A stretch of DNA of 64,000 nucleotides, from positions 1-64,000 of the forward strand of contig NZ_JMKI01000031.1 in NCBI RefSeq assembly GCF_000712295.1, in the 5' to 3' direction. The notes below the pieces were generated by a model. The model did no database searches. It had not been told where the DNA came from and saw only the letters and a list, made by a program, of their open reading frames with translations. The translations under genes and the position numbers were made by a program. Positions 31,048 through 47,036 of the stretch are shown one piece after another. Source of the stretch: Synergistes jonesii (GTDB lineage Bacteria > Synergistota > Synergistia > Synergistales > Synergistaceae). Numbering within the stretch: the stretch's first letter is position 1; each line of letters begins with the position of its first letter.

Positions 31048-33606
31048 ATGAATAAGCAGCAACTTGCTTCTAAGATCTGGGAATCAGCAAATAAAATGCG
31101 ATCCAAGATTGAAGCGAATGAGTACAAGGATTATATTTTAGGCTTTATCTTCTATAAATTTCTTTCTGACAAGGAAATAAAATATCTGAAGCAGAACGAC
31201 TGGACTGATGAAGATATCAAAGGTTTTCTGAATGAAGATGACAGAGAGACCGTTGAAAGTATTCATAAGAACGTGGGCTACTTTATCGCCTATGAGAATT
31301 TGTTTTCAACCTGGCTTGAAATGGGTTCGGACTTTAATGTGTCCAACGTCCGTGATGCCCTTTCCGCGTTCAGCAGACTGATTAACGCATCGCACAAAAA
31401 AGTCTTTGACAAGATTTTTGATACCTTGCAGACCGGTCTTTCTAAGCTGGGCGACAGCTCCGGTACCCAAACCAAGGCAATCAGCGATTTGATCCATCTG
31501 ATTAAGGATATCCCGATGGATAGCAAGCAGGATTATGATGTGCTGGGCTTCATTTATGAGTATCTGATTTCCAATTTTGCCGCAAACGCCGGCAAAAAAG
31601 CGGGCGAATTCTACACCCCACACGAAGTATCGCTGCTCATGTCTGAAATCGTTGCTGACCACCTCAAGGATAGAACCGAAATCAAAATTTACGACCCGAC
31701 CAGCGGCTCCGGCTCCCTGCTTATCAATATCGGTAAATGCGTTGCAAAATACATGGGCGACGGCGATAAAATCAAATACTATGCGCAGGAGCTCAAGGAA
31801 AACACCTATAACCTGACGAGAATGAACTTGGTCATGCGCGGTATATTGCCGGACAATATCGCCACGCGAAACGGTGATACGCTGGAGGAAGACTGGCCGT
31901 ACTTTGATGAAAGCGACCCTGTTGGTACTTATGATCCTCTTTATGTGGACGCTGTTGTTTCCAATCCGCCGTATTCACAGAACTGGAACCCCGCAAATAA
32001 GGAATCAGACCCGCGTTACAAGTCCTATGGACTTGCCCCGAAAGGAAAAGCGGATTATGCCTTCCTGCTTCATGACCTTTACCATATTAAACCCGACGGT
32101 TTAATGACCATCGTTCTTCCGCACGGTGTTTTGTTCCGTGGCGGTGAAGAAGGCGAAATCCGTAAAAATCTTATTGAAAACAACAAGATTGATGCCATTA
32201 TTGGTCTGCCTGCTAATATTTTCTTCGGCACAGGTATCCCTACGATTATCATGGTGCTGAAACAGCGCCGCAGCAATACGGACGTATTGATTATCGATGC
32301 ATCCAAGGGCTTTGAAAAGGTTGGAAAGACCAATAAGCTCCGCGCTTCTGATATTAAAAAGATCGTGGACGCAGTAACTTCCCGTGTGAGCATTCCCAAG
32401 TTCTCCAGGGTCGTGAGCAGAGAAGAAATCCGTCAGAACGATTACAACCTGAATATTCCCCGCTATGTGGATTCTTCTGAAAAGCCAGAAAGCTGGGATA
32501 TTTATGCCTCCATGTTTGGCGGCATCCCTGCCGGTGAAGTAAATGACCTGAGTGCGTACTGGGATGCTTTTCCCACACTCAAAAAAGCTTTGTTTGACGA
32601 TGCTGATGCTCCCTATCTGCATTTCAATGTTGAGGACATCAAGAAAACTGTTTCGGAACATGCTGACGTTACCGCTTTTGAGGGAAAATTCAAATCCGCC
32701 TTTGACGGCTTTGATTCTTATCTGGCTGAAGAATTAATCGGCGGAATGGATGCCATCAACATTTCCAAGGAAGAAAGCGCTCTTTCCGCGAAGATATTCG
32801 ACCGTCTTGACGGTATTCCGCTTGTTGACAGATACGAAGCATATCAGCTTCTGGACAATGAATGGAGCAGAATCGCAGTTGACCTTGAAATAATCCAGAC
32901 CGAAGGATTTGACGCCGCAAAGAAAGTTGACCCCAATATGGTCGTCAGGAAAAAAGACGGCAAGGATACCGAAGTTCAGGATGGCTGGATCGGCCATGTA
33001 ATCCCCTTTGAACTGGTTCAGGAAAAGCATCTGTCTGAAAAGCTTTCTGCACTCAAAGCAAACGAGACCCGCCTGACGGAAATTGCCGCCGGATTTGAAG
33101 AACAGCTCGACGAGCTGCCCGAAGAGGAAAAAGAAAAGGATTTTGTCAATGATGACAAAACAGCTTTTGTTGCCGCCGCAGTAAAGAAAGCAATCAAGGC
33201 GAAAGAGGTTGAACCGGAAATCCTTGACATTCTGAAAAAGGTCGATGCACTTGTTGCAGAGGAGAAGGCCGCCAAGAAGAAAGTCAAGGACGATTCCGCG
33301 GCACTTCATCTTGAAACAAAAGCAAAGATCGAACAGCTTTCTGACGATGAGGTAAAAGAACTCTTGAGGGAAAAGTGGATCGCACCCGTTGTAAACGGTC
33401 TTTCTAAGCTGCCCGGCGGCATTGTAAACGGGTTTGTTTCAAAGCTGGAAGCTCTCGCCAAGAAGTACGAGACAACTTTCTTTGAAGTCGAAGAAGAAAT
33501 CCGCAATGTAGAATCCGACTTGGCCGGTATGTTGGAACAACTCACGGGCAATGATTACGACATGCAGGGGCTTGCGGAGTTCAAAAAGCTTCTTGGAGGT
33601 GAATAA
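31048..33606 (+). CDS. hsdM: Type I restriction-modification methyltransferase subunit HsdM
   Basis: N6-adenine methylase of the HsdM2-HsdS complex, 852 residues. The N-terminal helical domain is LASKIWESANKMRSKIEANE. The S-adenosylmethionine motif is YDPTSGSGSLLINIGKC and the catalytic motif IV is VVSNPPYSQNW. At more than 800 residues it is longer than the classic 500-residue HsdM; the extra C-terminal third is acidic and helical (DEQLDELPEEEKEKDFVNDD-type stretches), as in a known long-HsdM group. TTGGAGGAAG precedes the ATG, and hsdS starts two bases after its stop. Confidence 0.95.
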   Translation: MNKQQLASKIWESANKMRSKIEANEYKDYILGFIFYKFLSDKEIKYLKQNDWTDEDIKGFLNEDDRETVESIHKNVGYFIAYENLFSTWLEMGSDFNVSNVRDALSAFSRLINASHKKVFDKIFDTLQTGLSKLGDSSGTQTKAISDLIHLIKDIPMDSKQDYDVLGFIYEYLISNFAANAGKKAGEFYTPHEVSLLMSEIVADHLKDRTEIKIYDPTSGSGSLLINIGKCVAKYMGDGDKIKYYAQELKENTYNLTRMNLVMRGILPDNIATRNGDTLEEDWPYFDESDPVGTYDPLYVDAVVSNPPYSQNWNPANKESDPRYKSYGLAPKGKADYAFLLHDLYHIKPDGLMTIVLPHGVLFRGGEEGEIRKNLIENNKIDAIIGLPANIFFGTGIPTIIMVLKQRRSNTDVLIIDASKGFEKVGKTNKLRASDIKKIVDAVTSRVSIPKFSRVVSREEIRQNDYNLNIPRYVDSSEKPESWDIYASMFGGIPAGEVNDLSAYWDAFPTLKKALFDDADAPYLHFNVEDIKKTVSEHADVTAFEGKFKSAFDGFDSYLAEELIGGMDAINISKEESALSAKIFDRLDGIPLVDRYEAYQLLDNEWSRIAVDLEIIQTEGFDAAKKVDPNMVVRKKDGKDTEVQDGWIGHVIPFELVQEKHLSEKLSALKANETRLTEIAAGFEEQLDELPEEEKEKDFVNDDKTAFVAAAVKKAIKAKEVEPEILDILKKVDALVAEEKAAKKKVKDDSAALHLETKAKIEQLSDDEVKELLREKWIAPVVNGLSKLPGGIVNGFVSKLEALAKKYETTFFEVEEEIRNVESDLAGMLEQLTGNDYDMQGLAEFKKLLGGE

Positions 33607-33607
33607 C

Positions 33608-34861
33608 ATGGCCGAAACCGCGAAAAAGCCGGCAATTCGGTTCAAGGGATTCACAGGCGCTTGGGAACAGCGTAAGTTTGGCGATATTTCTGAAATAAAA
33701 ACTGGTCCATTTGGAAGTACCCTTCATGCGGGCGATTACGTTACAGACGGTGTACCAATAATAACAACTGAGCATTTTAAGACTGGAACTTTGCAGAATG
33801 ACAAGGAAGGTTTGCCACAAGTTTCTCAAGAAGATTATGAACGGTTGTTGTCTTACGTGCTAAACGATGGTGATGTTGTCTTTTCTCGTGTTGGTTCAGT
33901 TGATGTAAACGCTTTAATTACGCCGTTTCAAGACGGGTGGTTGTTCTCTGGGCGAGTTTTGAGGGTTCGTCCAAGTAGAGGGAGTGATTCTCAATTCTTA
34001 CATACTTTATTAGAAACCGAAGATGTTAAAAATGATATTCGAGCAAGGGCTGTTGGCCAAACTATGCCAAGTATCAACACTGAAATCTTGAAAGCTACAA
34101 TACTGTTGTTGCCAACATCTGAAACGGAACAGCGCCAAATCGGGGCATGTTTCCGACAACTTGATCACCTTATCACCCTTCATCAGCGTAAGTATGACAA
34201 GCTCGTGAATGTGAAAAAATCCTGCCTCGAAAAAATGTTCCCGAAAAATGGCAGTAATGTTCCGGAAATTCGATTTTCCGGATTTACGGAAGCTTGGGAA
34301 CAGCGTAAGCTTAGAAACATCGCTGATAAAGTGACGGAAAAGAATGCCGATCTGGCGGTTTTGGAAACATTTACGAACTCTGCCGAATTCGGAATTATTA
34401 GCCAACGAGACTTTTTCGATCACGATATTTCGAACGCAGAGAATATCGGCGGGTATTATGTTGTGAAAAATGAAGATTTTGTCTATAATCCGCGCATCTC
34501 TGTTACTGCTCCTGTAGGCCCTATAAATCGCAATAAATTGGGCAGAAATGGCGTAATGTCGCCACTTTATACGGTGTTCCGCACACATGATATAGACACC
34601 ACTTATCTGGAATGGTTTTTCAAGAGTGCTTCTTGGCACGATTTTATGCATTACAACGGTGACTCCGGAGCAAGGTCAGACAGATTTTCAATCAAAGATG
34701 CGGTCTTTTTTGAGATGTCAATTCCCTATCCAGAGATTGCTGAACAGCGGAAAATTGGTCGATACTTAGATCAGCTTGACAACCTTATCACCCTTCATCA
34801 GCGTGAGCTTGAAAAGCTTCAAAATCTGAAGAAAGCTTGCCTTGAAAAGATGTTCGTGTAA
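33608..34861 (+). CDS. hsdS: Type I restriction-modification specificity subunit HsdS (active copy)
   Basis: 417 residues with two target-recognition domains. ATG 33608 follows TTGGAGGTG. The first half runs from RFKGFTGAWEQRKFGD to LITLHQRKYDKLVNVKKSC, the second from RFSGFTEAWEQRKLRN to LITLHQRELEKLQNLKKAC. These paired boundaries are encoded by near-identical DNA repeats (33659 and 34292; 34166 and 34780), which are also found in the inverted silent cassette. The protein decides which DNA sequence is methylated and cut, so swapping a half changes specificity. Confidence 0.95.
   Translation: MAETAKKPAIRFKGFTGAWEQRKFGDISEIKTGPFGSTLHAGDYVTDGVPIITTEHFKTGTLQNDKEGLPQVSQEDYERLLSYVLNDGDVVFSRVGSVDVNALITPFQDGWLFSGRVLRVRPSRGSDSQFLHTLLETEDVKNDIRARAVGQTMPSINTEILKATILLLPTSETEQRQIGACFRQLDHLITLHQRKYDKLVNVKKSCLEKMFPKNGSNVPEIRFSGFTEAWEQRKLRNIADKVTEKNADLAVLETFTNSAEFGIISQRDFFDHDISNAENIGGYYVVKNEDFVYNPRISVTAPVGPINRNKLGRNGVMSPLYTVFRTHDIDTTYLEWFFKSASWHDFMHYNGDSGARSDRFSIKDAVFFEMSIPYPEIAEQRKIGRYLDQLDNLITLHQRELEKLQNLKKACLEKMFV
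33659..33676 (+). repeat. WEQRK-coding element, first copy in active hsdS
   Basis: GCTTGGGAACAGCGTAAG, identical to 34292-34309 and inverted relative to 29817-29834. Confidence 0.85.
34166..34192 (+). repeat. LITLHQR-coding element, internal copy in active hsdS
   Basis: Closely matches 34780-34808 (CACCTTATCACCCTTCATCA, continuing GCGTAAG) and is inverted relative to 29318-29346. It marks the end of the first recognition domain. Confidence 0.8.
34292..34309 (+). repeat. WEQRK-coding element, second copy in active hsdS
   Basis: Identical to 33659-33676. It marks the start of the second recognition domain. Confidence 0.85.
34780..34808 (+). repeat. LITLHQR-coding element, end of active hsdS
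   Basis: 28 of 29 bases match 28310-28338; inverted relative to 29318-29346. The single difference is C for T in CACCCTT. Confidence 0.85.
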
Positions 34862-34892
34862 AAGAAGACAAAACGGAAGGAAATCATTAAAT

Positions 34893-35066
34893 ATGAGTAT
34901 TGAAGACAAAATCAAAAATGTAAAAGGTTCTTTCGCAATGGAAGGGATCGAAATGACAAAAACCGATGAAATGAATGCGAATGAGATTATTTCCAAAAAG
35001 AGAGACGTGGAGGAAATAATCTCTGAATTGAAGCGCAAGTATTCGGTAGCGGGGAGTTCATTATGA
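34893..35066 (+). CDS. VbhA-like antitoxin of a Fic toxin
   Basis: 57 residues from ATG 34893, with GGAAGGAAA upstream. KNVKGSFAMEGIEMTKTDEM contains SFAMEG, the [S/T]xxxE[G/N] inhibitory helix that blocks the Fic active site in class I toxin-antitoxin pairs. The stop overlaps the fic ATG by four bases, so antitoxin is made first and in step with toxin. It lies directly after hsdS. Confidence 0.82.
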   Translation: MSIEDKIKNVKGSFAMEGIEMTKTDEMNANEIISKKRDVEEIISELKRKYSVAGSSL

Positions 35067-35680
35067 AAGACATAGACTATTCTTATGAGTATAAGGATGA
35101 CGATAACAAGTATTGTTATCCCGGAACGAATGTGCTGAAAAACAAACTCAGCATTAAAGACTCGGAGATGCTTTATAACGCAGAAAGAGAATTTTCGATG
35201 GCGAGATACGCCGCGCTTCAGGTCAAACCGATTAACGGTGACTTTTCGTTAAAGCATCTGCGAGAGATTCATAAGTATCTTTTTCAGGATGTTTATGATT
35301 GGGCTGGTGTTCTCCGAACCGTGGACATTTCAAAAGGGACGATCTTCTGTCTTGTACAGCATATCGAGGCACAGTTTGAAATCATTCACCAATGGCTGAA
35401 GAAAAGGAACTATCTGAAAGATGTTTCGGACAGGGTTGAGATGGCAAAAGATCTTGCTTATGTTCTTGGCGAAATAAATATGATACATCCATTTAGAGAA
35501 GGAAACGGAAGAGCCCAAAGGCTATATATTGAACAATTATGCGAGAATAACGGAAGGTTTGAAGTGAATTTTTCTTTTGCTACACAAGAGGAAATGCTTA
35601 AAGCCAGTGTGGATGCCAGTGTGTGTAATTATGAGGCTATGGAGGCGCTTTTCTTGAAGTGTCTTATTGAAAGGAATTAA
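35063..35680 (+). CDS. fic: Fic-domain AMPylating toxin
   Basis: 205 residues. The catalytic loop HPFREGNGRAQR is a full match to HPFx[D/E]GNGR, with the loop upstream (KGTIFCLVQHIEAQFEII) as the usual target-binding flap. It should transfer AMP to a host protein unless held by the SFAMEG antitoxin. It is encoded between hsdS and hsdR, two bases before hsdR, so it is transcribed with the restriction genes. Confidence 0.92.
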   Translation: MKDIDYSYEYKDDDNKYCYPGTNVLKNKLSIKDSEMLYNAEREFSMARYAALQVKPINGDFSLKHLREIHKYLFQDVYDWAGVLRTVDISKGTIFCLVQHIEAQFEIIHQWLKKRNYLKDVSDRVEMAKDLAYVLGEINMIHPFREGNGRAQRLYIEQLCENNGRFEVNFSFATQEEMLKASVDASVCNYEAMEALFLKCLIERN

Positions 35681-35682
35681 CG

Positions 35683-38600
35683 ATGGCTTTTACAAAAGAA
35701 TCCGACTTTGAAAATGCTCTGATAAAAATGCTGACAGAGTCCTGCGGTTGGGAAAAGGAAATTCTGCAATACAAAACAGAAAAAGATCTTTTGCAAAACT
35801 GGGCAAATATCTTATTTGAAAACAACCGCAGTATTGACCGCCTGAATAATTATCCTCTTACAGACGGCGAAATGCAGCAGATCATTGAGCAAATAAAAAC
35901 TTTGCGCACGCCGCTGAAACTGAACGGTTTCATCAACGGAAAAAGTGTGTCCATCACTCGTGATAATCCCGATGACAAAGAGCACTTCGGGAAAGAAGTG
36001 TCTCTGAAGATTTATGACCGTCAGGAAATCGCCGCAGGGCAAAGCCGTTATCAGATTGCACGGCAGCCGAAATTCACCGCAAAGACAAGTATGCTTCCCG
36101 GCCGTCGTGGAGATTTTATGCTCCTGATTAACGGTATGCCGCTGATTCATGTGGAACTCAAGAAGAGCGGTATACCGGTATCCCAAGCGTACAATCAGAT
36201 TGAGAAATACTCCCACGAAGGCGTATTTACAGGTTTGTTTGCGCTCGTTCAGGTTTTTGTCGCAGTGAATCCGGAAGAAGCCGTTTATTTTGCCAATCCC
36301 GGGCCGGACGGCAAGTTTAACTCGGATTTCTATTTCCATTGGGCAGATTTCAACAACGAGCCAATCAATGATTGGAAGACGCTGGCATCCACATTCCTTT
36401 CGATTCCTATGGCTCATCAGCTTATCGGGTTTTACACAGTCGCAGACGATACCGATGGTATTCTAAAAGTTATGAGATCGTATCAGTATTATGCTGCCAA
36501 TAAGATTTCCGATACCGTTGCAAAACACAAATGGGAAAACGGAAACCAGCTCGGAGGATACATATGGCATACAACCGGTTCCGGCAAAACTATGACATCC
36601 TTCAAATCTGCACAGCTGATCGCCAATTCAAAGGATGCCGACAAAGTAGTATTTCTCATTGACCGTATTGAGCTCGGAACGCAGAGCGCCGGTGAATATC
36701 GCGGATTTGCCGAAGCAACGGACGATATCCAGGAAACGGAAGACACTTCCGTATTGATTGCAAAACTGAAAAGCAACGACCCCGCGAATACACTGATCGT
36801 TACTTCCGTTCAGAAGATGAGCAACATCAAGGACGATACGGAAGGCAAGCTCAAAAAAGCAGATCTCGACTTGATTACATCAAAGCGCATTGTATTCATT
36901 GTTGACGAGTGCCATCGTTCCACTTTCGGCGACATGATGCGGGTCGTAAAGCAGACATTCCCAAAGGCCCTCTTCTTCGGCTTCAGTGGAACGCCTATTC
37001 AGGCTGAAAACGAAAAGAAAGGCAGCACCACCGCCGACGTATTCGGCAGCGAACTGCACCGTTACAGCATTGCTGACGGTATCAGGGATAAAAATGTTCT
37101 TGGCTTTGATCCGGATAAGGTTCTCACGTTCAAAGAAAAGGACATACGCGAGGCTGTCGCGCTTGATAAAGCAAAGGCAAAAACTGTAGCGGAAGTGTTC
37201 TCTGACGCGAAAAAGCAAAAAATCTATTATGAGTATATGCATAACGTTCCCATGGCGGGCTTTGAAGATGCCAATGGGAAATATGTGAAAGGCATTGAAG
37301 ATTTCCTGCTTGAGAACGGTCAGTACCGAACAGAAGAACATCAGAAAATGGTTGTCCGGGACATCATTGATAACTGGATCACCATCAGCCATAATCATAA
37401 ATTCCATGGGATTTTTGCCACTTCCAGCATTCCGGAAGCTATTCAATATTACAAGCGATTCAAGGATGCCACGCCCGATCTGAAAGTTACCGCCCTCTTT
37501 GATCCGAGTATTGACGACAACGGCTATGGTATCGAAAAAGAAGATGCGCTAATCGAGCTTATCGAAGACTACAATAAGCTCTACCATCAGACATTTACAA
37601 TTCCCACATGGGGCAAGATGAAAAAAGATATTCAATATCGTCTTGCGCACAAAAAGCCTTATGAAAGAAACGAATTTGCTCCTGAAGAACAGATCGATTT
37701 GCTGATAGTGGTGGATCAGATGCTTACCGGTTATGACTCAAAGTGGCTGAACGTGTTATATCTTGATAAAATGCTGCGGTATGAAAGCATTATTCAGGCT
37801 TTCTCGCGCACAAACCGCCTCTTTGGGCCGGATAAGCCGTTTGGCTGCATAAAATACTATCGCGCTCCGTATTCCATGGAGCGAAATATAAATGCGGCGG
37901 TGAAGCTATACTCCGGTGATAAGCCGCTGGGAATGTTTGCGGTCAAGCTTGATAAAAACCTGGAAAACATGAATTCTGTGTTCACACAAATCAAGAATCT
38001 ATTTGAGCAGGCAGGAATATTCAGCTTTGAACGTCTGCCTAACGAGATGACGGAGCGCAGAAAGTTTGCCAAGTTGTTTAACGAGTTCAATGAGTATCTC
38101 GAATCAGCAAAAGTTCAGGGTTTTATCTGGGACAAGCTTGATTACGACTTTGCCGATGAGACAACCGGCGAAGTGAAAACTGTGTCCCTGCTTTTGGATG
38201 AGAAGACATATTTGATTCTTGCCTTGCGTTATAAAGAGTTGTTTGTTGAAGCCCCCACAAATCCGGGTGAAGACTTTCCCTATGATTTGACGGGTTATCT
38301 GACAACGATCGATACAGATGAAATTGACGCCGATTATATGAATTCACGCTTTGAGAAATATAAGAAAGCCCTGACAAGCGGCAATGCGGAAGATATTGAA
38401 GCGGCAAAAGAGGAACTGCATAAAACATTCGCAACGCTGACACAGGAAGAGCAAAAATATGCGAATATCTTCCTGCATGATATTCAGACAGGCGATGTCA
38501 AAGCGGAAAGAGGAAAGACACTCCGCGATTATATCAACGAATATATGCAAAAAGCCAAGAAGGATCAGATACTTAGACTTGCCTCGGTTCTCGGGCTTGA

Positions 38601-38829
38601 CAAAGATATGCTACAAAATATGATGGCACTTAAAGTTGATGATGCCACGATTAACGAGTATGGGAGATTGGACAGCCTCAAGGCAGATGTTGATAAATCA
38701 AAAGCAAAAGCATATTTCGAAGCAGTTGAAGGCATTAAAATGCCTATGCCAAAAGTAAACATTAAAGTAGATATGCTTCTGCGTAAGTTCATTATCAGCG
38801 GTGGATATGATATTAAAATGCCGGAATAA
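35683..38829 (+). CDS. hsdR: Type I restriction endonuclease subunit HsdR
   Basis: 1,048 residues. The N-terminal PD-ExK nuclease is GRRGDFMLLINGMPLIHVEL followed by KKSG, with catalytic Asp, Glu and Lys in place. The SF2 motor has Walker A HTTGSGKTMTS, motif Ia QLIANSKDADKVVFLIDR, DEAD-type box IVDECHRSTFG, motif III FFGFSGTPI, and motif VI QAFSRTNRLF. The C-terminal helical domain (DMLLRKFIISGGYDI near the end) binds the methylase. It looks fully intact, so restriction should be active. It is the last gene of the operon. Confidence 0.95.
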   Translation: MAFTKESDFENALIKMLTESCGWEKEILQYKTEKDLLQNWANILFENNRSIDRLNNYPLTDGEMQQIIEQIKTLRTPLKLNGFINGKSVSITRDNPDDKEHFGKEVSLKIYDRQEIAAGQSRYQIARQPKFTAKTSMLPGRRGDFMLLINGMPLIHVELKKSGIPVSQAYNQIEKYSHEGVFTGLFALVQVFVAVNPEEAVYFANPGPDGKFNSDFYFHWADFNNEPINDWKTLASTFLSIPMAHQLIGFYTVADDTDGILKVMRSYQYYAANKISDTVAKHKWENGNQLGGYIWHTTGSGKTMTSFKSAQLIANSKDADKVVFLIDRIELGTQSAGEYRGFAEATDDIQETEDTSVLIAKLKSNDPANTLIVTSVQKMSNIKDDTEGKLKKADLDLITSKRIVFIVDECHRSTFGDMMRVVKQTFPKALFFGFSGTPIQAENEKKGSTTADVFGSELHRYSIADGIRDKNVLGFDPDKVLTFKEKDIREAVALDKAKAKTVAEVFSDAKKQKIYYEYMHNVPMAGFEDANGKYVKGIEDFLLENGQYRTEEHQKMVVRDIIDNWITISHNHKFHGIFATSSIPEAIQYYKRFKDATPDLKVTALFDPSIDDNGYGIEKEDALIELIEDYNKLYHQTFTIPTWGKMKKDIQYRLAHKKPYERNEFAPEEQIDLLIVVDQMLTGYDSKWLNVLYLDKMLRYESIIQAFSRTNRLFGPDKPFGCIKYYRAPYSMERNINAAVKLYSGDKPLGMFAVKLDKNLENMNSVFTQIKNLFEQAGIFSFERLPNEMTERRKFAKLFNEFNEYLESAKVQGFIWDKLDYDFADETTGEVKTVSLLLDEKTYLILALRYKELFVEAPTNPGEDFPYDLTGYLTTIDTDEIDADYMNSRFEKYKKALTSGNAEDIEAAKEELHKTFATLTQEEQKYANIFLHDIQTGDVKAERGKTLRDYINEYMQKAKKDQILRLASVLGLDKDMLQNMMALKVDDATINEYGRLDSLKADVDKSKAKAYFEAVEGIKMPMPKVNIKVDMLLRKFIISGGYDIKMPE

Positions 38830-41533: not shown

Positions 41534-42568
41534 CTATACGGCCTCCATGATTTTTGGCAGCGCCGCCTTGACTACGTCGACGCCGCGCAAAAATTCTTTT
41601 ATGGGAATCTGCTCGTCGAGGCTGTGGTCGTATTTCGAATCCCCCGGGCCGTAGGCGCCCATCGGGCAGCCCCACACGGAGAGGACGTTGAAGTCGCAGG
41701 TGCCCTGCTTAGCGAGGATGCGCGGAGGTTCGCCGGAGACTTCGCGGATCGCGGAGCGGAACGCGCGTATCACCGGGTCCGATTTATGTACCTCGTGCGG
41801 CGGCACATACTCGATTATTTTGAGCCCGACGCCGAAGGCCGCGGCCGTTTCGCCGAGCACCATTTCGAGTTCCCGCTGTTCCGCGCCTATCGGGGTGCGG
41901 AGGTCCATCGTTATCGTCGCGTAGCGCTTTCCGGCCTCGCGCCCCTCCATCTCCATCACCGCTATCGAATAGCCCTTGCCCATGTTCTTCGTTATCTGCT
42001 CCATCGACGCGGAGGCGAGCACCGCGGCCGTCATGGGCCCCGGGCTTCCGGAGCGGTGCGCGCCGCCGTCCTCCGCGAAGAAGGAGAATAGTATCCTGCC
42101 CCGGTACGACAGCGCGACGCTCTGAGAGCCCGTCGGCTCGCCCACTACGAGCGCCGCCGGCTCGTGCAGCGGCATGCGGAAGCGCGCGCCGCGCGAATCT
42201 ATCTCCTCGCCGACCGCGCCGACGAAGGTGAGGCGCCAGTCGTGCGGTATTTCCACAGCCCCGCCTCCGACGGCGAGGGCGCAGCAGGGGCTCTTCGCGT
42301 CGACCGCTCCGCGTCCGACGATCCTTTCCTCGTCGACGTGGAACTCCGGCCCGCCGGGCACTGTGTCGATGTGGCTCAGAAGCACGAGCTCCTTGTCGCC
42401 GCCGCCGCGCGTCGCGATCACGGAACCGACGCCGTCCAGATGCGACGTCTCCCAGCCGAAGCGCGGCAGGCGGTCGGCGAGCATCCTCGCGGCGTCGGCC
42501 TCTTCGCGCGTCGGGCTGGGCACGGCGACCATGTCGACCAGAAGCCCCACCGATTCGGGAAGCCTCAT
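41534..42568 (-). CDS. lysK: LysW-carrier lysine/ornithine hydrolase LysK
   Basis: M20 zinc peptidase that releases lysine (or ornithine) from the LysW C-terminus, the final step. 344 residues from ATG 42568; the longer frame to 42706 runs back through lysJ. Metal ligands are in LLSHIDTVPGG (HxD), GRGAVDAKSP (Asp) and GAVGEEIDSRGA (paired Glu), with AKQGTCDFNVLSVWG and the final His in KYDHSLDEQ. The ATG overlaps the lysJ stop by four bases. It is the last gene of the lys cluster. Confidence 0.9.
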   Translation of the reverse strand: MRLPESVGLLVDMVAVPSPTREEADAARMLADRLPRFGWETSHLDGVGSVIATRGGGDKELVLLSHIDTVPGGPEFHVDEERIVGRGAVDAKSPCCALAVGGGAVEIPHDWRLTFVGAVGEEIDSRGARFRMPLHEPAALVVGEPTGSQSVALSYRGRILFSFFAEDGGAHRSGSPGPMTAAVLASASMEQITKNMGKGYSIAVMEMEGREAGKRYATITMDLRTPIGAEQRELEMVLGETAAAFGVGLKIIEYVPPHEVHKSDPVIRAFRSAIREVSGEPPRILAKQGTCDFNVLSVWGCPMGAYGPGDSKYDHSLDEQIPIKEFLRGVDVVKAALPKIMEAV

Positions 42569-43710
42569 CTGGCGCCGCCTCCCATTTCTTTCATCGTCTT
42601 TTCGAATATATCGACGGCGGCGAACGCCGTCTCCTCCGTCACCGCGAAGGAGGGTAGGAAGCGCACGACGCGCGGCCCGGCGGCCGAGGAAAGCAGGCCG
42701 CGCCACTGCAGCGCCCTGACTATCTCCTGCGACGCGCCTTTAGTCTCGGCGCCTATCAGCAGCCCCCTGCCGCGCACGGCCGCGACGCCGGGGATGTCTC
42801 TCTTTGAAATCTCAGAACAGATCAGCTCGCCCATCTTAGCGGCGTGGGCGCAGAGATTTTTTTCCTTTATGTATTTCAACGCCGCGAGCGCGACGTTCAT
42901 CGCCAGTTCGTTGCCGCCGTAGGTCGAGCCGTGCGAATGAGGGGGGAAGTCGCCGAGCTCTTCGCGCCATATCGCGGCTCCTACGGCCATTCCTCCGGCG
43001 AGCCCCTTCGCGACGCAGACGACGTCCGGCGAAAGCCCCGCACCCTGCGACGCGAAGAAGGCGCCGCAGCGCCCGAGGCCGCTCTGAACTTCGTCGGCGA
43101 CGAGAAAAGCCCCGTTGGCGCGGCACGCTTCGCTTATCGCGCGCCCTACTTCTGGCGGGATAGGATAGACGCCGCCTTCGCCCTGCACCGGCTCGACGAA
43201 GACGGCGAGGGTCTCTTCGGAGATTTTTGCGGGGATCTCCTCCGGAGCATAGTGTTTGACGGCCGGTATAAGCGCGGCAAACGGCGCGCGGTATTTCGGG
43301 TTGAAGGTGAGGCCGAGCGAACCGCAGCTGCGCCCGTGGAACGCGCGGCGGCAGGCGATTATCTCGCGGCGTCCACCCTTTAGCGCGGCGGCGAGCTTGA
43401 GCGCCGCCTCTATGGCCTCCGTGCCGCTGTTGCAGAAGAAGACCCGCCCTCCGCCGATTTCCTCCGCCAGAAGCCTGGCCGCCTCTTCGCGCGCCGGAGA
43501 TTCGCAGCCGGCGCCGGAGCTCCATATCCCGTGAGCGGCGCGGCAGAGAGCGTCGACGAGCGCAGGGGCGCCGTGTCCGAAGAGCGCTGCACCGTGCCCG
43601 TTGAAGAAGTCGATGTAGCGGCGTCCGTTTCCGTCCCAGACGTATGCGCCTTCGCCGCGCACGAGCGAGACGCCGCGCCCGCCGTAGAGCGAGCTCAGCG
43701 CGCGAAGCAT
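42565..43710 (-). CDS. lysJ: LysW-semialdehyde aminotransferase LysJ
   Basis: Class III aminotransferase, 381 residues, converting the LysW-bound semialdehyde to the amine. PLP Lys is in DVVCVAKGLAGGMAVGA, and other class III blocks are FFCNSGTEAIEAALKLA, AFHGRSCGSLGLT, VEPVQGEGGVYP and LVADEVQSGLGRCG. It overlaps lysZ by 16 bases and lysK by four. ArgD is the nearest alternative, but the lysW context favours LysJ. Confidence 0.9.
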   Translation of the reverse strand: MLRALSSLYGGRGVSLVRGEGAYVWDGNGRRYIDFFNGHGAALFGHGAPALVDALCRAAHGIWSSGAGCESPAREEAARLLAEEIGGGRVFFCNSGTEAIEAALKLAAALKGGRREIIACRRAFHGRSCGSLGLTFNPKYRAPFAALIPAVKHYAPEEIPAKISEETLAVFVEPVQGEGGVYPIPPEVGRAISEACRANGAFLVADEVQSGLGRCGAFFASQGAGLSPDVVCVAKGLAGGMAVGAAIWREELGDFPPHSHGSTYGGNELAMNVALAALKYIKEKNLCAHAAKMGELICSEISKRDIPGVAAVRGRGLLIGAETKGASQEIVRALQWRGLLSSAAGPRVVRFLPSFAVTEETAFAAVDIFEKTMKEMGGGAR

Positions 43711-44504
43711 GTCGAATTCCCCCCGAATGCGTTCGCGATCGGCTCCTTGACGCGCCCGTCCGCGATGTAGACCTTCGGCACCGAGAGATCGAGCGCCTCG
43801 CGACAGGCGACGAGCTTGCGTTTCATGCCGCCCTGCGCGTAATGCTCGAGGATGTCCCAGTCGGCGAGGCGGCCGCTTTTGATAAGGGTCGACTCGTCGC
43901 CGGCGCTTTTCAGCAGCCCGGCGACGTTCGAGAGAATCACCAGCGCTTCGGCGTTCACGGCCGCCGCGATCCGGGCGGCGAGCCTGTCGCCGTCGACGTT
44001 CAGCGATATTCCGAGCTCGGCGTCGAGCGCGAGGGGCGGGACCACCGGCACAAGCCCCTTATCCAGCGCCGCGGCGAAGGGGCGTGCCTCCGTTTTCGTC
44101 ACGGTGCCGCTGTAGTTGCCGCGCAGGATGCGCGTCCTCCCGTTCGCGCATTCGCGCAGAAAATCCTTGCGCTCCGCTTCGGCGTGACCCTCCCTCTCGG
44201 GGTCGAAGAGCTCCGGCTTCGCACCGCGCGCCGAAAGCTCCTCCGCGATGCTCGCGCCGTAAGAGAGCGCCGCGTCGCGAAAAACGGCGCGCTCACGTTC
44301 GCCGACGAAGCGGCTCTTGTAGCCGGATGGGCTCGTCACCATGCGGACATCTATCCCGCGTTCCGCACAGAGCGCGTCCATCGCACCGCTCGCTCCGTGT
44401 ACGACGATCCAGCGCTCGCCGCCGCGCGTCCTGCGCGCTATCTCATCCGCCAGCGGCCCTACCGCGTTCCCCGCGGCGCCGCCTATCTTGACAACTCCGA
44501 TCAT
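43695..44504 (-). CDS. lysZ: LysW-aminoadipate/glutamate 6-kinase LysZ
   Basis: Amino acid kinase of the ArgB family, 269 residues, phosphorylating the side-chain carboxylate of the LysW-linked amino acid. The N-terminal VVKIGGAAGNAVGPLADEIA carries the KIGG phosphate motif, with VVHGASGAMDAL and the substrate-binding LNVDGDRLAARIAAAVNAEA. KSAGDESTLIK and GGMKRKLVACREAL are the usual C-terminal parts. It is 16 bases after the lysY stop and overlaps lysJ. Confidence 0.9.
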   Translation of the reverse strand: MIGVVKIGGAAGNAVGPLADEIARRTRGGERWIVVHGASGAMDALCAERGIDVRMVTSPSGYKSRFVGERERAVFRDAALSYGASIAEELSARGAKPELFDPEREGHAEAERKDFLRECANGRTRILRGNYSGTVTKTEARPFAAALDKGLVPVVPPLALDAELGISLNVDGDRLAARIAAAVNAEALVILSNVAGLLKSAGDESTLIKSGRLADWDILEHYAQGGMKRKLVACREALDLSVPKVYIADGRVKEPIANAFGGNSTCFAR

Positions 44505-44520: not shown

Positions 44521-45570
44521 CTATGCCGGGTAAAGGGGCATCATATCGAGCCCGCAGATCTCGGGCAGCCCCGTCATCAGATTCGCGCACTGCACGGCGG
44601 AGCCGGCCGCGCCCTTCATCAAATTGTCTATAGCCGAGGCGGCGATCATGCGGCGCCCGTCTTCGGCGAGCATAAAGCCCGTCAGGACGCGGTTGCTGCC
44701 GAGCACGAAGCGTGGGTCGGGTATGCGGAAGTGCGTCGGCTTCGCCGGAGTGAATGAGACGAAGGGCTCGTCGTTCCAGGCGCTCCTGTAAAGCTTCCAG
44801 AGGTCTGCTTCGCGCAGCCGCTCCTTCAGCGTCACGTGCGCGAGGCACTGGATGCCGCGCACGAGCTCGACGGCGGTGACGCCGAGCGTGAACGACGAGA
44901 GCGGCAGCGAAAGCTCCTGCGTCACCTCGGCCGCGTGGCGGTGTACGAACGGCGTCACGACGCGCAGCGCGCGGCTGCGCACGGAATGGGCCGAGCCTTC
45001 GTCGGCTACGGCGCCGCTCTCCGAAGAGCCCACGCGGCACTCGACGCGCGCCTCCTCTATCGCCCCGGCGCGGGCTACCGGGAGCAGTGCCGTTATCGTA
45101 GCCGCGGCGTTGCAACCGACGCCGGAGACGAGGCGCGCCTGCGCTATTTCGGCCCTGTGCAGTTCGGGCAGCCCGTAGGCCGCCTCCGCGAGATACTGCG
45201 GTGCGGGATGCTCTACGCCGTACCATTTTTTGTATTCCTCGGCGCTCTTCAGGCGGAAGTCCGCCGATAAATCGACGACCTTCTGGCCGGCTTCGAGCAG
45301 CCGCGCCGCGATCTGCGCCGACGCGCGGTGCGGCAGCGCGAGGAAGGCGACGGCCGGAGAGAGAGAAACCGCGTCGTCCGGCGAAATAAAATCCATCCCG
45401 TTGTAGACGTGGCGCAGATGCGGATGCGCCGCGCCGACCGCCGTGCCGGCCTTCGAGCGCGACACGGCGCCCACGGCCTCGAAGCGCGGATGGCGCGCGA
45501 TGATGCGAAGCAGCTCGGCGCCGGCATAGCCAGTCGCGCCCCATATCGTTACCGGAATCTTTTCGTTCAT
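44521..45570 (-). CDS. lysY: LysW-phosphate reductase LysY (ArgC-like)
   Basis: NADPH-dependent reductase of 349 residues that turns the LysW-linked acyl phosphate into the semialdehyde. The Rossmann start is IPVTIWGATGYAGAELLRII. The catalytic Cys is in VSGVGCNAAATITALLPVAR and the C-terminal His region follows FTLGVTAVELVRGIQCLAHV. GAGGGG precedes ATG 45570. It is separated from lysX by a 200-base leader with a terminator, so its expression and that of lysZJK is probably attenuated. Confidence 0.9.
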   Translation of the reverse strand: MNEKIPVTIWGATGYAGAELLRIIARHPRFEAVGAVSRSKAGTAVGAAHPHLRHVYNGMDFISPDDAVSLSPAVAFLALPHRASAQIAARLLEAGQKVVDLSADFRLKSAEEYKKWYGVEHPAPQYLAEAAYGLPELHRAEIAQARLVSGVGCNAAATITALLPVARAGAIEEARVECRVGSSESGAVADEGSAHSVRSRALRVVTPFVHRHAAEVTQELSLPLSSFTLGVTAVELVRGIQCLAHVTLKERLREADLWKLYRSAWNDEPFVSFTPAKPTHFRIPDPRFVLGSNRVLTGFMLAEDGRRMIAASAIDNLMKGAAGSAVQCANLMTGLPEICGLDMMPLYPA

Positions 45571-45599: not shown

Positions 45600-45632
45600 A
45601 AAAAAACCCGCTTCCTCTCGGATGCGGGCCGC
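45600..45632 (-). terminator. Terminator hairpin in the lysY leader (attenuator)
   Basis: On the minus strand CCCGCATCC, a GAGA loop and GGAAGCGGG form a nine-pair stem with one mismatch, followed by seven T residues. It lies 30 bases before lysY, inside an otherwise co-directional cluster, so it is a conditional terminator rather than an operon end. Confidence 0.8.
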
Positions 45633-45658
45633 GCTTTTGCCATATCCACCAGGTCACG

Positions 45659-45766
45659 TCAGACCGGCACGGCAGAAACCCACGACCCATCCTGCAGGCG
45701 CTTTATTCCGCGCTTGCATTTGTTCCCGAGCTTTATTGCCGCAAAAACCGTTTCACGATGCAGCAT
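45659..45766 (-). CDS. Candidate 35-residue leader peptide of the lysYZJK attenuator
   Basis: ATG 45766 to TGA 45659, starting three bases after the lysX stop, with GAGGG upstream. It has four Lys and three Arg codons, and residues 16-23 read K-C-K-R-G-I-K-R. It ends about 27 bases before the terminator stem. Bases GGATGGG within codons 25-27 can pair with the CATCC/CC part of the terminator's 5' arm. This is the architecture of a ribosome-stalling attenuator. Translation is not proven. Confidence 0.5.
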   Translation of the reverse strand: MLHRETVFAAIKLGNKCKRGIKRLQDGSWVSAVPV

Positions 45767-45769
45767 GAT

Positions 45770-46609
45770 TCACTTTTCCCTCAAGCTCCAAGCCGTCTCG
45801 ACCACCGCGCCGGGTATGTCGACCCCCGTCGGCTCTATCGAGTTGCGGAACTCCCCGCCGTCGTTGACCTCGTTCACGAGCCAGCGCCCCTGCGATCTGA
45901 AAAGATCCGCCGCGAGGAAGCCTCCGCCTATGGCGGCGTGCACCGAGCGCAGCAGGGAAGTCATCTCGCCGTCGAGCGGAAGGTTGGAGGCCGACGCGCC
46001 GCGCGCGGTGTTAGTGATCCAATGTTCGCTCGCGCGCGCGATGGCGCATATCGGTTCGCCTCCGACGACGAAAGCGCGCGCGTCGAAGCTCCCCTTGTCG
46101 ACGAATTCCTGGATGTAAAAGGTGTTGTGTATCGCCCCGAGCATGGATTTATGCTCGAATACCGCCTCGGCGCATTCGCGGTCGTTGATTTTGGCGAGCA
46201 GCCTCCCCCAGCTGCCGGAGACCGGCTTGCAGACGACCGGGTAGCCCATCGCTTCGGCCGCGGCGAGAGCCCCCTCCTGCGAAAAGGCTACAGAAAATTT
46301 CGGCTGCGGGACGCCCGCCTCCGCCAGCACGACGGAAGTCGTGAGCTTGTTGCCGCACACCTCCGCCACGCGCGAAGGATTTACGAGCGTGACGCCCTGC
46401 ATCTCCAGCATCCTTGTGACGCCTTCGTTCTGGTTGTGCGAAACGCAGCGCGCGAGCACGACGTCCCCCTCGGAGCAGAAGCGTTCGCTCCCGAAGAGCG
46501 CGTCGCTCACGTTGCGCAGCTCGCAGGGTATGCCTCTGCGGTCGGCCGCCTCCTTGAGCAGCTTCTCTTCCGCGCGCAGGCGCGTGAAAAGGATTCTCAG
46601 CGCCGGCAC
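45770..46609 (-). CDS. lysX: LysW-glutamate/aminoadipate ligase LysX
   Basis: ATP-grasp ligase of 279 residues that joins the substrate amino group to the C-terminal Glu of LysW. The start is GTG 46609 (VPALRILFTRLRAEEKLLKE), one base after the lysW stop, with GGAGAG upstream; the longer frame runs back through lysW. RimK-type features are VNPSRVAEVCGNKLTTSVVL, YPVVCKPVSGSWGRLLAKI, FYIQEFVDKGSFDARAFVVG and the metal site FLAADLFRSQGRWLVNEVND. Whether it uses aminoadipate (LysX) or glutamate (ArgX) cannot be decided here. Confidence 0.9.
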   Translation of the reverse strand: MPALRILFTRLRAEEKLLKEAADRRGIPCELRNVSDALFGSERFCSEGDVVLARCVSHNQNEGVTRMLEMQGVTLVNPSRVAEVCGNKLTTSVVLAEAGVPQPKFSVAFSQEGALAAAEAMGYPVVCKPVSGSWGRLLAKINDRECAEAVFEHKSMLGAIHNTFYIQEFVDKGSFDARAFVVGGEPICAIARASEHWITNTARGASASNLPLDGEMTSLLRSVHAAIGGGFLAADLFRSQGRWLVNEVNDGGEFRNSIEPTGVDIPGAVVETAWSLREK

Positions 46610-46610
46610 G

Positions 46611-46778
46611 CTACTCTCCCCAGTCTTCCTGCACCTGCGGCGCCTCTTCGACCGCCGGCGGCTCCAGCGATACGACTTCGAGCTCGGTGCCGCAGTCCTG
46701 GCAGACGACCAATTCGCCCTCGCAGCAATTTTCCGGAAGGGACACATCCGCCTCGCATACTACGCATTTCACGTTCAT
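46611..46778 (-). CDS. lysW: Amino-group carrier protein LysW
   Basis: 55 residues from ATG 46778, with GGGGG upstream. Zinc-finger cysteines are in VKCVVCEADVSL and LVVCQDCGTELEV, followed by an acidic tail ending in EDWGE, the hallmark C-terminus whose last Glu carries the biosynthetic intermediate. It is small, acidic and soluble. It heads the cluster lysW-lysX-[attenuator]-lysY-lysZ-lysJ-lysK. Confidence 0.95.
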   Translation of the reverse strand: MNVKCVVCEADVSLPENCCEGELVVCQDCGTELEVVSLEPPAVEEAPQVQEDWGE

Positions 46779-47036
46779 TGAAAATACCCCCATTAAAATA
46801 TATTTTTTAAATCAAATAATATAAACTTTTAATCTTATATATTCTGACTAAATTGCTTTTTAGGGACCCCAAGAACGGCTAAAAGTAAATATCGTTCAAA
46901 AATGTCACCAAATAAAGCGAATAATCGCAGATAAATAATTAAAAGTTTATTTATCATGTTTCGGTATGATACTCCGAACTTTTGATTTGTCAATAGCCGA
47001 AAATTAAGGCAAAGTGGATCGCCTCCGCTCTCCGGC
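46779..47036. other. lysW leader and promoter region
   Basis: AT-rich. From the promoter at 46966-46993 a leader of about 180 bases runs to lysW. It contains a hydrophobic 40-codon frame (ATG about 46957, stop 46835) without a ribosome site, which I do not call as a gene. No terminator was seen in the leader. Confidence 0.4.
46966..46993 (-). promoter_or_regulatory. Promoter of the lysW cluster
   Basis: On the minus strand a consensus TTGACA (46988-46993) and TATCAT (46966-46971) are 16 bases apart. This is the best sigma-70 match in the cluster. Confidence 0.65.

Follow-up and report, generated by a model that had tools for sequence, protein, structure and literature searches.

Genetic context of the lysX-lysY gap

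The window, a stretch of 64,000 nt of Synergistes jonesii DNA, carries on its minus strand a LysW gene cluster in the order lysW, lysX, lysY, lysZ, lysJ and lysK, with a 199-nt gap between lysX, whose stop codon ends at 45770, and lysY. The genes and the features assigned to the gap are, in the direction of transcription:

46966..46993, minus strand: putative sigma-70-like promoter TTGACA-16-TATCAT upstream of lysW (consensus match only)
46611..46778, minus strand: lysW/argW carrier protein gene, the first gene of the operon (TIGR01206 lysW, 63.7 bits, over cut-off)
45770..46609, minus strand: lysX, encoding the LysW:glutamate/aminoadipate ligase (TIGR02144, 276.1 bits, over cut-off; likely GTG start)
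45659..45766, minus strand: leader open reading frame of 35 codons (MLHRETVFAAIKLGNKCKRGIKRLQDGSWVSAVPV), ATG at 45766 and stop at 45659, this frame being open in all 22 loci
45698..45721, minus strand: Lys/Arg codon block K-C-K-R-G-I-K-R, codons 16-23; in IKR, K is kept in 22/22 and R in 21/22 loci, and changes are biased to codon position 3
45693..45718, minus strand: predicted P1 hairpin over the Lys/Arg codons, five of its nine pairs changed on both sides
45681..45688, minus strand: predicted antiterminator 5' arm GGGTCGTG (GGGYCGTG), pairing with 45626-45633 (89.8% of cells paired)
45626..45633, minus strand: predicted antiterminator 3' arm CGCGGCCC, which shares bases with the 5' arm of the terminator
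45600..45630, minus strand: predicted intrinsic terminator with arms at 45624-45630 and 45605-45611 and a T-run at 45600-45606 (97.4% of cells paired, 22 loci)
44521..45570, minus strand: lysY/argC-like reductase gene (TIGR01850 argC, 321.3 bits, over cut-off), the first gene under the candidate attenuator
43695..44504, minus strand: lysZ/argB-like [LysW]-kinase gene (NF010659, 201.7 bits, below the cut-off of 223)
42565..43710, minus strand: lysJ/argD-like transaminase gene (TIGR00707, 340.9 bits, below the cut-off of 410)
41534..42583, minus strand: lysK-like [LysW]-lysine/ornithine hydrolase gene (TIGR01902, 238 bits, over cut-off; start approximate)

The likely start of lysW is the ATG at 46778; its open reading frame is listed from 46793. 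A first-pass annotation had placed a 35-codon frame three bases after lysX and a strong terminator before lysY. Both stand: the ATG at 45766 faces the lysX stop at 45770 on the minus strand, and a terminator-like hairpin with a T-run occupies 45600-45630. The frame has seven Lys/Arg codons, at positions 4, 12, 16, 18, 19, 22 and 23, but six rather than seven of them fall within codons 12-23, the seventh being Arg4. Elsewhere in the window, at 31048-38829 on the plus strand, lie frames that by eye resemble a type I restriction-modification set (HsdM, HsdS, Fic-like and HsdR).

Conservation of the leader frame and its Lys/Arg codons

All counts below refer to 22 non-redundant Synergistota loci, namely the window, L002-L022 without L013, and L044, a further Synergistales record. 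L013 was left out because its lysX-lysY gap is identical to that of L012, and L023-L026 and L045-L049 because they are too diverged or cut. The short frame, the hairpins and the long-range pairing recur in all 22 aligned loci, with the pairing weaker in L006, which is more than chance would give. The leader ATG lies between -4 and +5 nt from the lysX stop codon in every aligned locus (22/22), and the two remaining frames of the leader region are closed in 22/22 and 16/22 loci.

In ten close pairs of loci, the N-terminal part of the leader differs 32, 38 and 41 times at codon positions 1, 2 and 3, and appears from these counts to be under no coding constraint beyond staying open. The corresponding numbers for the K-x-K-x-G-I-K-R block are 5, 8 and 17. 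A drifting N-terminus next to a block whose changes are biased to the third position indicates that it is the codons that matter there, and not a folded product. Conserved Lys codons occupy three positions (19/20, 18/20 and 22/22 loci, the first two counted without L004 and L007) and a conserved Arg codon one (21/22), the exception being L006, in which IKR has become MKH. Among the 582 in-frame leader codons, 96 are Lys and 53 are Arg, so that Lys is the more enriched; the out-of-frame +2 reading is rich in Lys and Arg as well (21.3% vs 25.6% in the leader frame). Nearly every leader contains both residues, and the leader of G171 (L162) has four Arg and two Lys codons. No stop codon interrupts the leader frame of G068 and G069 ahead of the terminator. 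The short frame with codons of the regulated amino acid that this class of attenuator demands is present, and we predict that it is translated.

Conservation of the basic block could also reflect an arrest peptide, in which a nascent K-x-K-x-x-(I/V/M)-K in the ribosomal tunnel would contribute to stalling at the last Arg codon. The conserved KR block would fit, as would the residue before K, which is hydrophobic in all 22 loci despite codon changes (ATA in 20, ATG in one and GTT in one). However, ATA is frequently used for Ile here (47%) and falls within the P1 loop, so that the two changed rows are thin evidence. Moreover, no ligand is known, and stalling induced by a ligand would induce, not repress, a biosynthetic operon. 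We therefore regard an arrest peptide as unlikely.

Mutually exclusive pairings and covariation

The first-pass annotation had also noted that GGATGGG in codons 25-27 is complementary to part of the 5' arm of the terminator. The heptamer does span these codons, but it is GGGYCGTG (45681-45688), overlapping the heptamer, that is conserved in relatives and pairs with the 3' arm listed above. We evaluated the P1 hairpin and the antiterminator core together against 500 shuffles. In 374 cells, 86.4% were paired vs 81.4% in the shuffles, with 25 double-change cells vs 9.4 and a covariation of 0.266 vs 0.165; for each of these three measures, none of the 500 shuffles scored as high. Double changes affected nine pairs vs 5.1 (5/500 shuffles as high), and there were 22 further pair types vs 19.6 (55/500). 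Slid versions of the pairing reached only 32-49% paired. Covariation of the terminator stem is slight, with two double-change cells vs 0.8 and 69/500 shuffles as high. A lack of conserved frame or stems, which the first-pass annotation had named as speaking against its proposal, was thus not observed: frame, codons, antiterminator and terminator are kept in 22 loci, and pairs of P1 and the antiterminator covary.

One P1 pair is G-C in ten loci, C-G in six, A-U in five and G-U in one, and the codon beneath it accordingly encodes Arg, His or Pro, so that pairing is kept while the amino acid gives way. We first recognized P1 by eye and only afterwards counted its pairs, and it is therefore not an independent prediction; RNAalifold run on the MAFFT alignment returned the terminator or the antiterminator core without P1.

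When folded alone, the antiterminator stretch forms a long hairpin in nearly all rows, with a mean of -25.6 kcal/mol and z<-2 in 19/22 (the exceptions being L003, L006 and L015), and it is more stable than the terminator in 22/22. In L006, six of the eight antiterminator pairs form and the z-score is +0.29. Folding of the whole gap of the window alone gave a z-score of only -1.95. On the basis of the shared arm, the covariation of the antiterminator side and the energies, the antiterminator and the terminator are predicted to be mutually exclusive.

Covariation of P1 even where the amino acid changes (Arg, His or Pro at one codon), together with the conserved P1 loop, is what one would also expect of a metabolite-binding riboswitch formed by P1 and the antiterminator, to which the short frame would be incidental. 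We consider such a riboswitch improbable, since the frame is open in 22/22 loci and shows third-position bias, and since no Rfam family matches the window at the gathering score. The best weak cis-regulatory match was Trp_leader with 16.5 bits (E 4.3; gathering score 41). Lysine riboswitches, T-boxes and amino-acid leaders were rejected as candidates, with zero matches at the gathering score in the window, and the same scan of 20 relatives returned only a cobalamin riboswitch in L019.

The layout of the classical trp leader, in which segment 1 sequesters segment 2 if the leader is untranslated, is not found in the 22 loci, where P1 does not overlap the antiterminator. In truncated folds, the 5' arm of the antiterminator is often paired somewhere upstream (mean 0.68). 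An upstream sequestering segment was considered and dropped as a general feature, since it reached p<0.05 in only 4/22 loci (L003, L004, L007 and L021). Because P1 has no bases in common with the antiterminator and there is no general sequestering segment, untranslated RNA would be expected to favor read-through, unlike in trp.

Spacing and proposed mechanism

A ribosome covers about 12 nt counted from the first base of its A-site codon. In 18/22 rows, GGGYCGTG lies 12 nt (seven rows) or 14 nt (11 rows) past the first base of the last Lys/Arg codon, and a ribosome stalled at that codon would therefore leave the antiterminator just free. The exceptions are L006 (15 nt), L007 (6 nt), and L018 and L044 (5 nt each); L007, L018 and L044 carry an additional, later Lys/Arg codon. 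The 12- and 14-nt spacings differ by a 2-nt insertion separating the KR block from ATGGG, which puts the antiterminator motif in another frame although both motifs are kept, indicating that codons and pairing are constrained separately. The distance by which the leader stop codon reaches into the antiterminator side is 27-28 nt in 16/22 rows and 19-46 nt in the other six. As the stop is usually located so far into the 5' side, a ribosome there would prevent formation of the antiterminator hairpin.

We propose that a ribosome ending lysX re-initiates on, or passes to, the adjoining leader frame, as the conserved overlap or abutment suggests. With plentiful charged tRNA-Arg, and perhaps tRNA-Lys, the ribosome would run to the leader stop and block the antiterminator, so that the terminator would form and only lysW-lysX RNA would be made. 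With scarce charged tRNA, the ribosome would stall on the Lys-Arg codons and melt P1, its leading edge ending just short of GGGYCGTG; the long antiterminator would then capture the 5' arm of the terminator, and lysYZJK would be transcribed. In the window, lysY starts 30 nt past the end of the modelled stretch, and this distance is at most 60 nt in 17/22 loci. In these loci there is little room for a second promoter, and lysY probably depends on read-through. The arrangement suggests that lysWX lie upstream of the switch and that lysYZJK are the gated part.

Given the conservation, covariation, mutually exclusive pairings, spacing and gene content, we consider it very probable that the element is a ribosome-mediated transcription attenuator inside the operon that gates lysYZJK; from these observations we infer that the leader is translated, that ribosomes stall on it and cause read-through, and which amino acid is sensed. 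Ribosome stalling at Lys/Arg codons to control lysYZJK within a LysW cluster, the central proposal of the first-pass annotation, is thereby well supported by the conserved frame, codons, antiterminator and terminator and by the covariation, although the layout departs from that of the classical trp leader.

Distribution in Synergistota

A LysX search of 52 genomes of the family matched 31, of which 26 hold clear orthologues (E of roughly 1e-100 or below) and five only weak paralogues. The gap was extracted from 22 loci with lysY directly next to it and from four (L023-L026) with lysY farther on. In these four, from G001 and G049-G051, a leader and a terminator are followed by about 0.9-1 kb before lysY. 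Counting matches with E<1e-15 as strong, model R1 detected strong copies in 22/52 family genomes, a count that includes the rows from which R1 was built. There was one copy per genome, always after lysX, and none in LysX-less genomes among the 52. Weak matches occurred in G001 (26.1 bits) and in G015 and G041, genomes without a clear LysX, and a second match in G014 (L136) consists of the terminator only.

Among 185 genomes of the phylum, 73 of which have LysX (E<=1e-40), R1 found no strong copy beyond those of the family. The weak matches in G068, G069, G072 and G073 sit after lysX; those at L134, L135, L137, L138 and L142 were viewed in the middle region only. With filters off, L158 (G179) gave 27.1 bits over its terminator. 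Among 85 sources (window, L023-L026, L031-L110), R1 gave no strong match outside Synergistota, L092 giving E 0.41 on the minus strand. The lysX-lysY junction of L055, titled Phycisphaerales, is almost identical to that of L056 (Synergistaceae), and L055 is probably a mislabelled or mixed MAG.

Outside the family, we inspected by eye the stretch after lysX in 39 of the 47 LysX genomes (G064, G160, G149, G151, G142, G152, G055 and G052 being left out). A K/R-rich frame follows lysX in 11 of the 39 (G068-G070, G072-G075 and G171-G174), the G070 contig ending inside the terminator. In 22, lysX and lysY are close together without such a frame; four (G058, G061, G179 and G181) have a terminator alone between lysX and lysY; and the other two are G060 and G148. 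The four genomes with a terminator and no visible K/R leader are what an unregulated intra-operon terminator, merely setting the lysWX : lysYZJK ratio, would look like. As an account of the element itself, such a terminator is very unlikely, because it leaves the conserved leader, P1 and antiterminator of 22 loci unexplained.

Several Synergistota have two lysX copies close together (L163 = G172:C254, L154, L157 and L148). In L157 (G060:C1:496695-500614), the lysX frame is open for 730 codons, past the lysX-lysY junction, which may reflect a fusion or a sequencing error. In G058, G060 and G061, the first lysX is followed by a long, structured-looking stretch without an Rfam match at the gathering score.

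Pathway product and the amino acid sensed

LysW, X, Y, Z, J and K are present in the host genome (G000) with argG (503.5 bits, over cut-off) and without a detectable ArgJ, which is the gene content of the LysW-dependent arginine (ArgW) pathway; ArgJ was found in only 1/52 family genomes. The homocitrate synthase of the LysW-dependent lysine pathway was not found in G000 (best TIGR02146 match 77.3 bits, cut-off 413.55). It does have lysA (360.7 bits, over cut-off) and a dapB-like gene (110.7 bits, just under the cut-off of 122). ArgR scored over cut-off in 0/52 family genomes, with one weak match in G040. From the lack of homocitrate synthase, the presence of argG, lysA and a dapB-like gene and the ArgR count, the pathway most likely makes ornithine/arginine. 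The simplest reading of this gene content, and the most likely one, is that lysine is made from diaminopimelate and that the LysW cluster makes ornithine for arginine.

Since the pathway most likely makes ornithine/arginine, we prefer arginine as the amino acid sensed by the leader and consider it the probable one; the first-pass annotation had allowed for either Lys or Arg. Arg codons fit the gene content, but the Lys codons are at least as conserved, which makes lysine, alone or with arginine, a serious rival. The same attenuator might sense lysine, or lysine and arginine together, and thereby coordinate both basic amino acids. The three conserved Lys positions and the 96/582 Lys codons would agree with this, as would the occurrence of both residues in nearly every leader and the K/R-rich frames that follow both lysX copies in G172. 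G172 and G173, which have two lysX copies, carry homocitrate-synthase-like genes below cut-off. Set against lysine or dual sensing is the host itself, which lacks a detectable homocitrate synthase and has lysA and the dapB-like gene, so that the operon is probably not lysine-making; we regard such sensing as possible but doubtful.

More speculatively, arginine sensing may be part of a wider arrangement, in which a phylum-specific intra-operon attenuator that is translation-coupled to the preceding gene would take the place of ArgR. The LysW carrier and its ligase would lie outside the switch and the downstream enzymes would be gated, with arginine sensed through a stall that is sharpened by the conserved basic nascent peptide and that possibly integrates lysine and arginine supply. 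At the least, the attenuator would give a testable explanation of how arginine synthesis by the LysW route may be controlled in Synergistota that have no ArgR over cut-off.

Comparison with known attenuators

The LysW cluster of Thermus thermophilus reportedly has a lysine-specific attenuator located upstream of the cluster. The element described here resembles it in being a leader peptide that would control a LysW gene cluster, but differs from it in being internal, in belonging to another phylum and in serving an operon that is most likely arginine-making. Attenuators between the genes of one operon occur in the pyr operon of Bacillus subtilis, where they are mediated by the PyrR protein and have no leader peptide. 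The present element shares this intra-operon position but is of the leader-peptide type.

Transcription attenuators with leader peptides are of the trp, his, ilv and leu type, an example being ilvBNC of Corynebacterium (PMC11109978, PMC10272879). Like them, the present element combines a short frame containing cognate codons, alternative antiterminator and terminator structures and amino-acid biosynthetic genes downstream. Unlike them, it lies between operon genes and abuts the preceding stop codon, and its P1 shares no bases with the antiterminator. Paired Arg codons in the short leader orf34 of Salmonella sense arginine at the head of the orf34-speF operon and control both the decay of the mRNA and the translation of a polyamine gene (PMC6386406). 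In both cases, the position of the ribosome, at Arg codons or at the stop, would choose the RNA fold; in contrast to orf34-speF, the present element would act through an intrinsic terminator inside a biosynthetic operon. Arginine genes of other species are named as T-box regulated in another report (PMC1262725), and the Synergistetes genome of Thermovirga lienii is analysed in PMC6429828.

Searches of an open-access library holding few subscription journals gave no description of an attenuator that lies inside a LysW arginine operon and abuts lysX. Leader-peptide attenuation is already known; it is the placement, the abutment to lysX and the pathway that look new. The arrangement suggests that leader-peptide attenuation can operate between the genes of an operon, where a ribosome leaving one enzyme gene could sense on behalf of the next. 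The alignment and model R1 make the element searchable.

A separate candidate occurs in a distant member of the phylum, at L141 1465-1610 (G053:C6:54853-54959). The candidate is a Lys/Arg-rich frame of 30 codons, 12 of them K/R, and comes with a Shine-Dalgarno-like AGGAGG, a GGGCCAGGA/TCCTGGCCCGC pairing, a terminator and a weak R1 match (21.2 bits). The genes that follow appear by eye to be citrate synthase-like and Asp/Glu racemase-like, not arginine genes.
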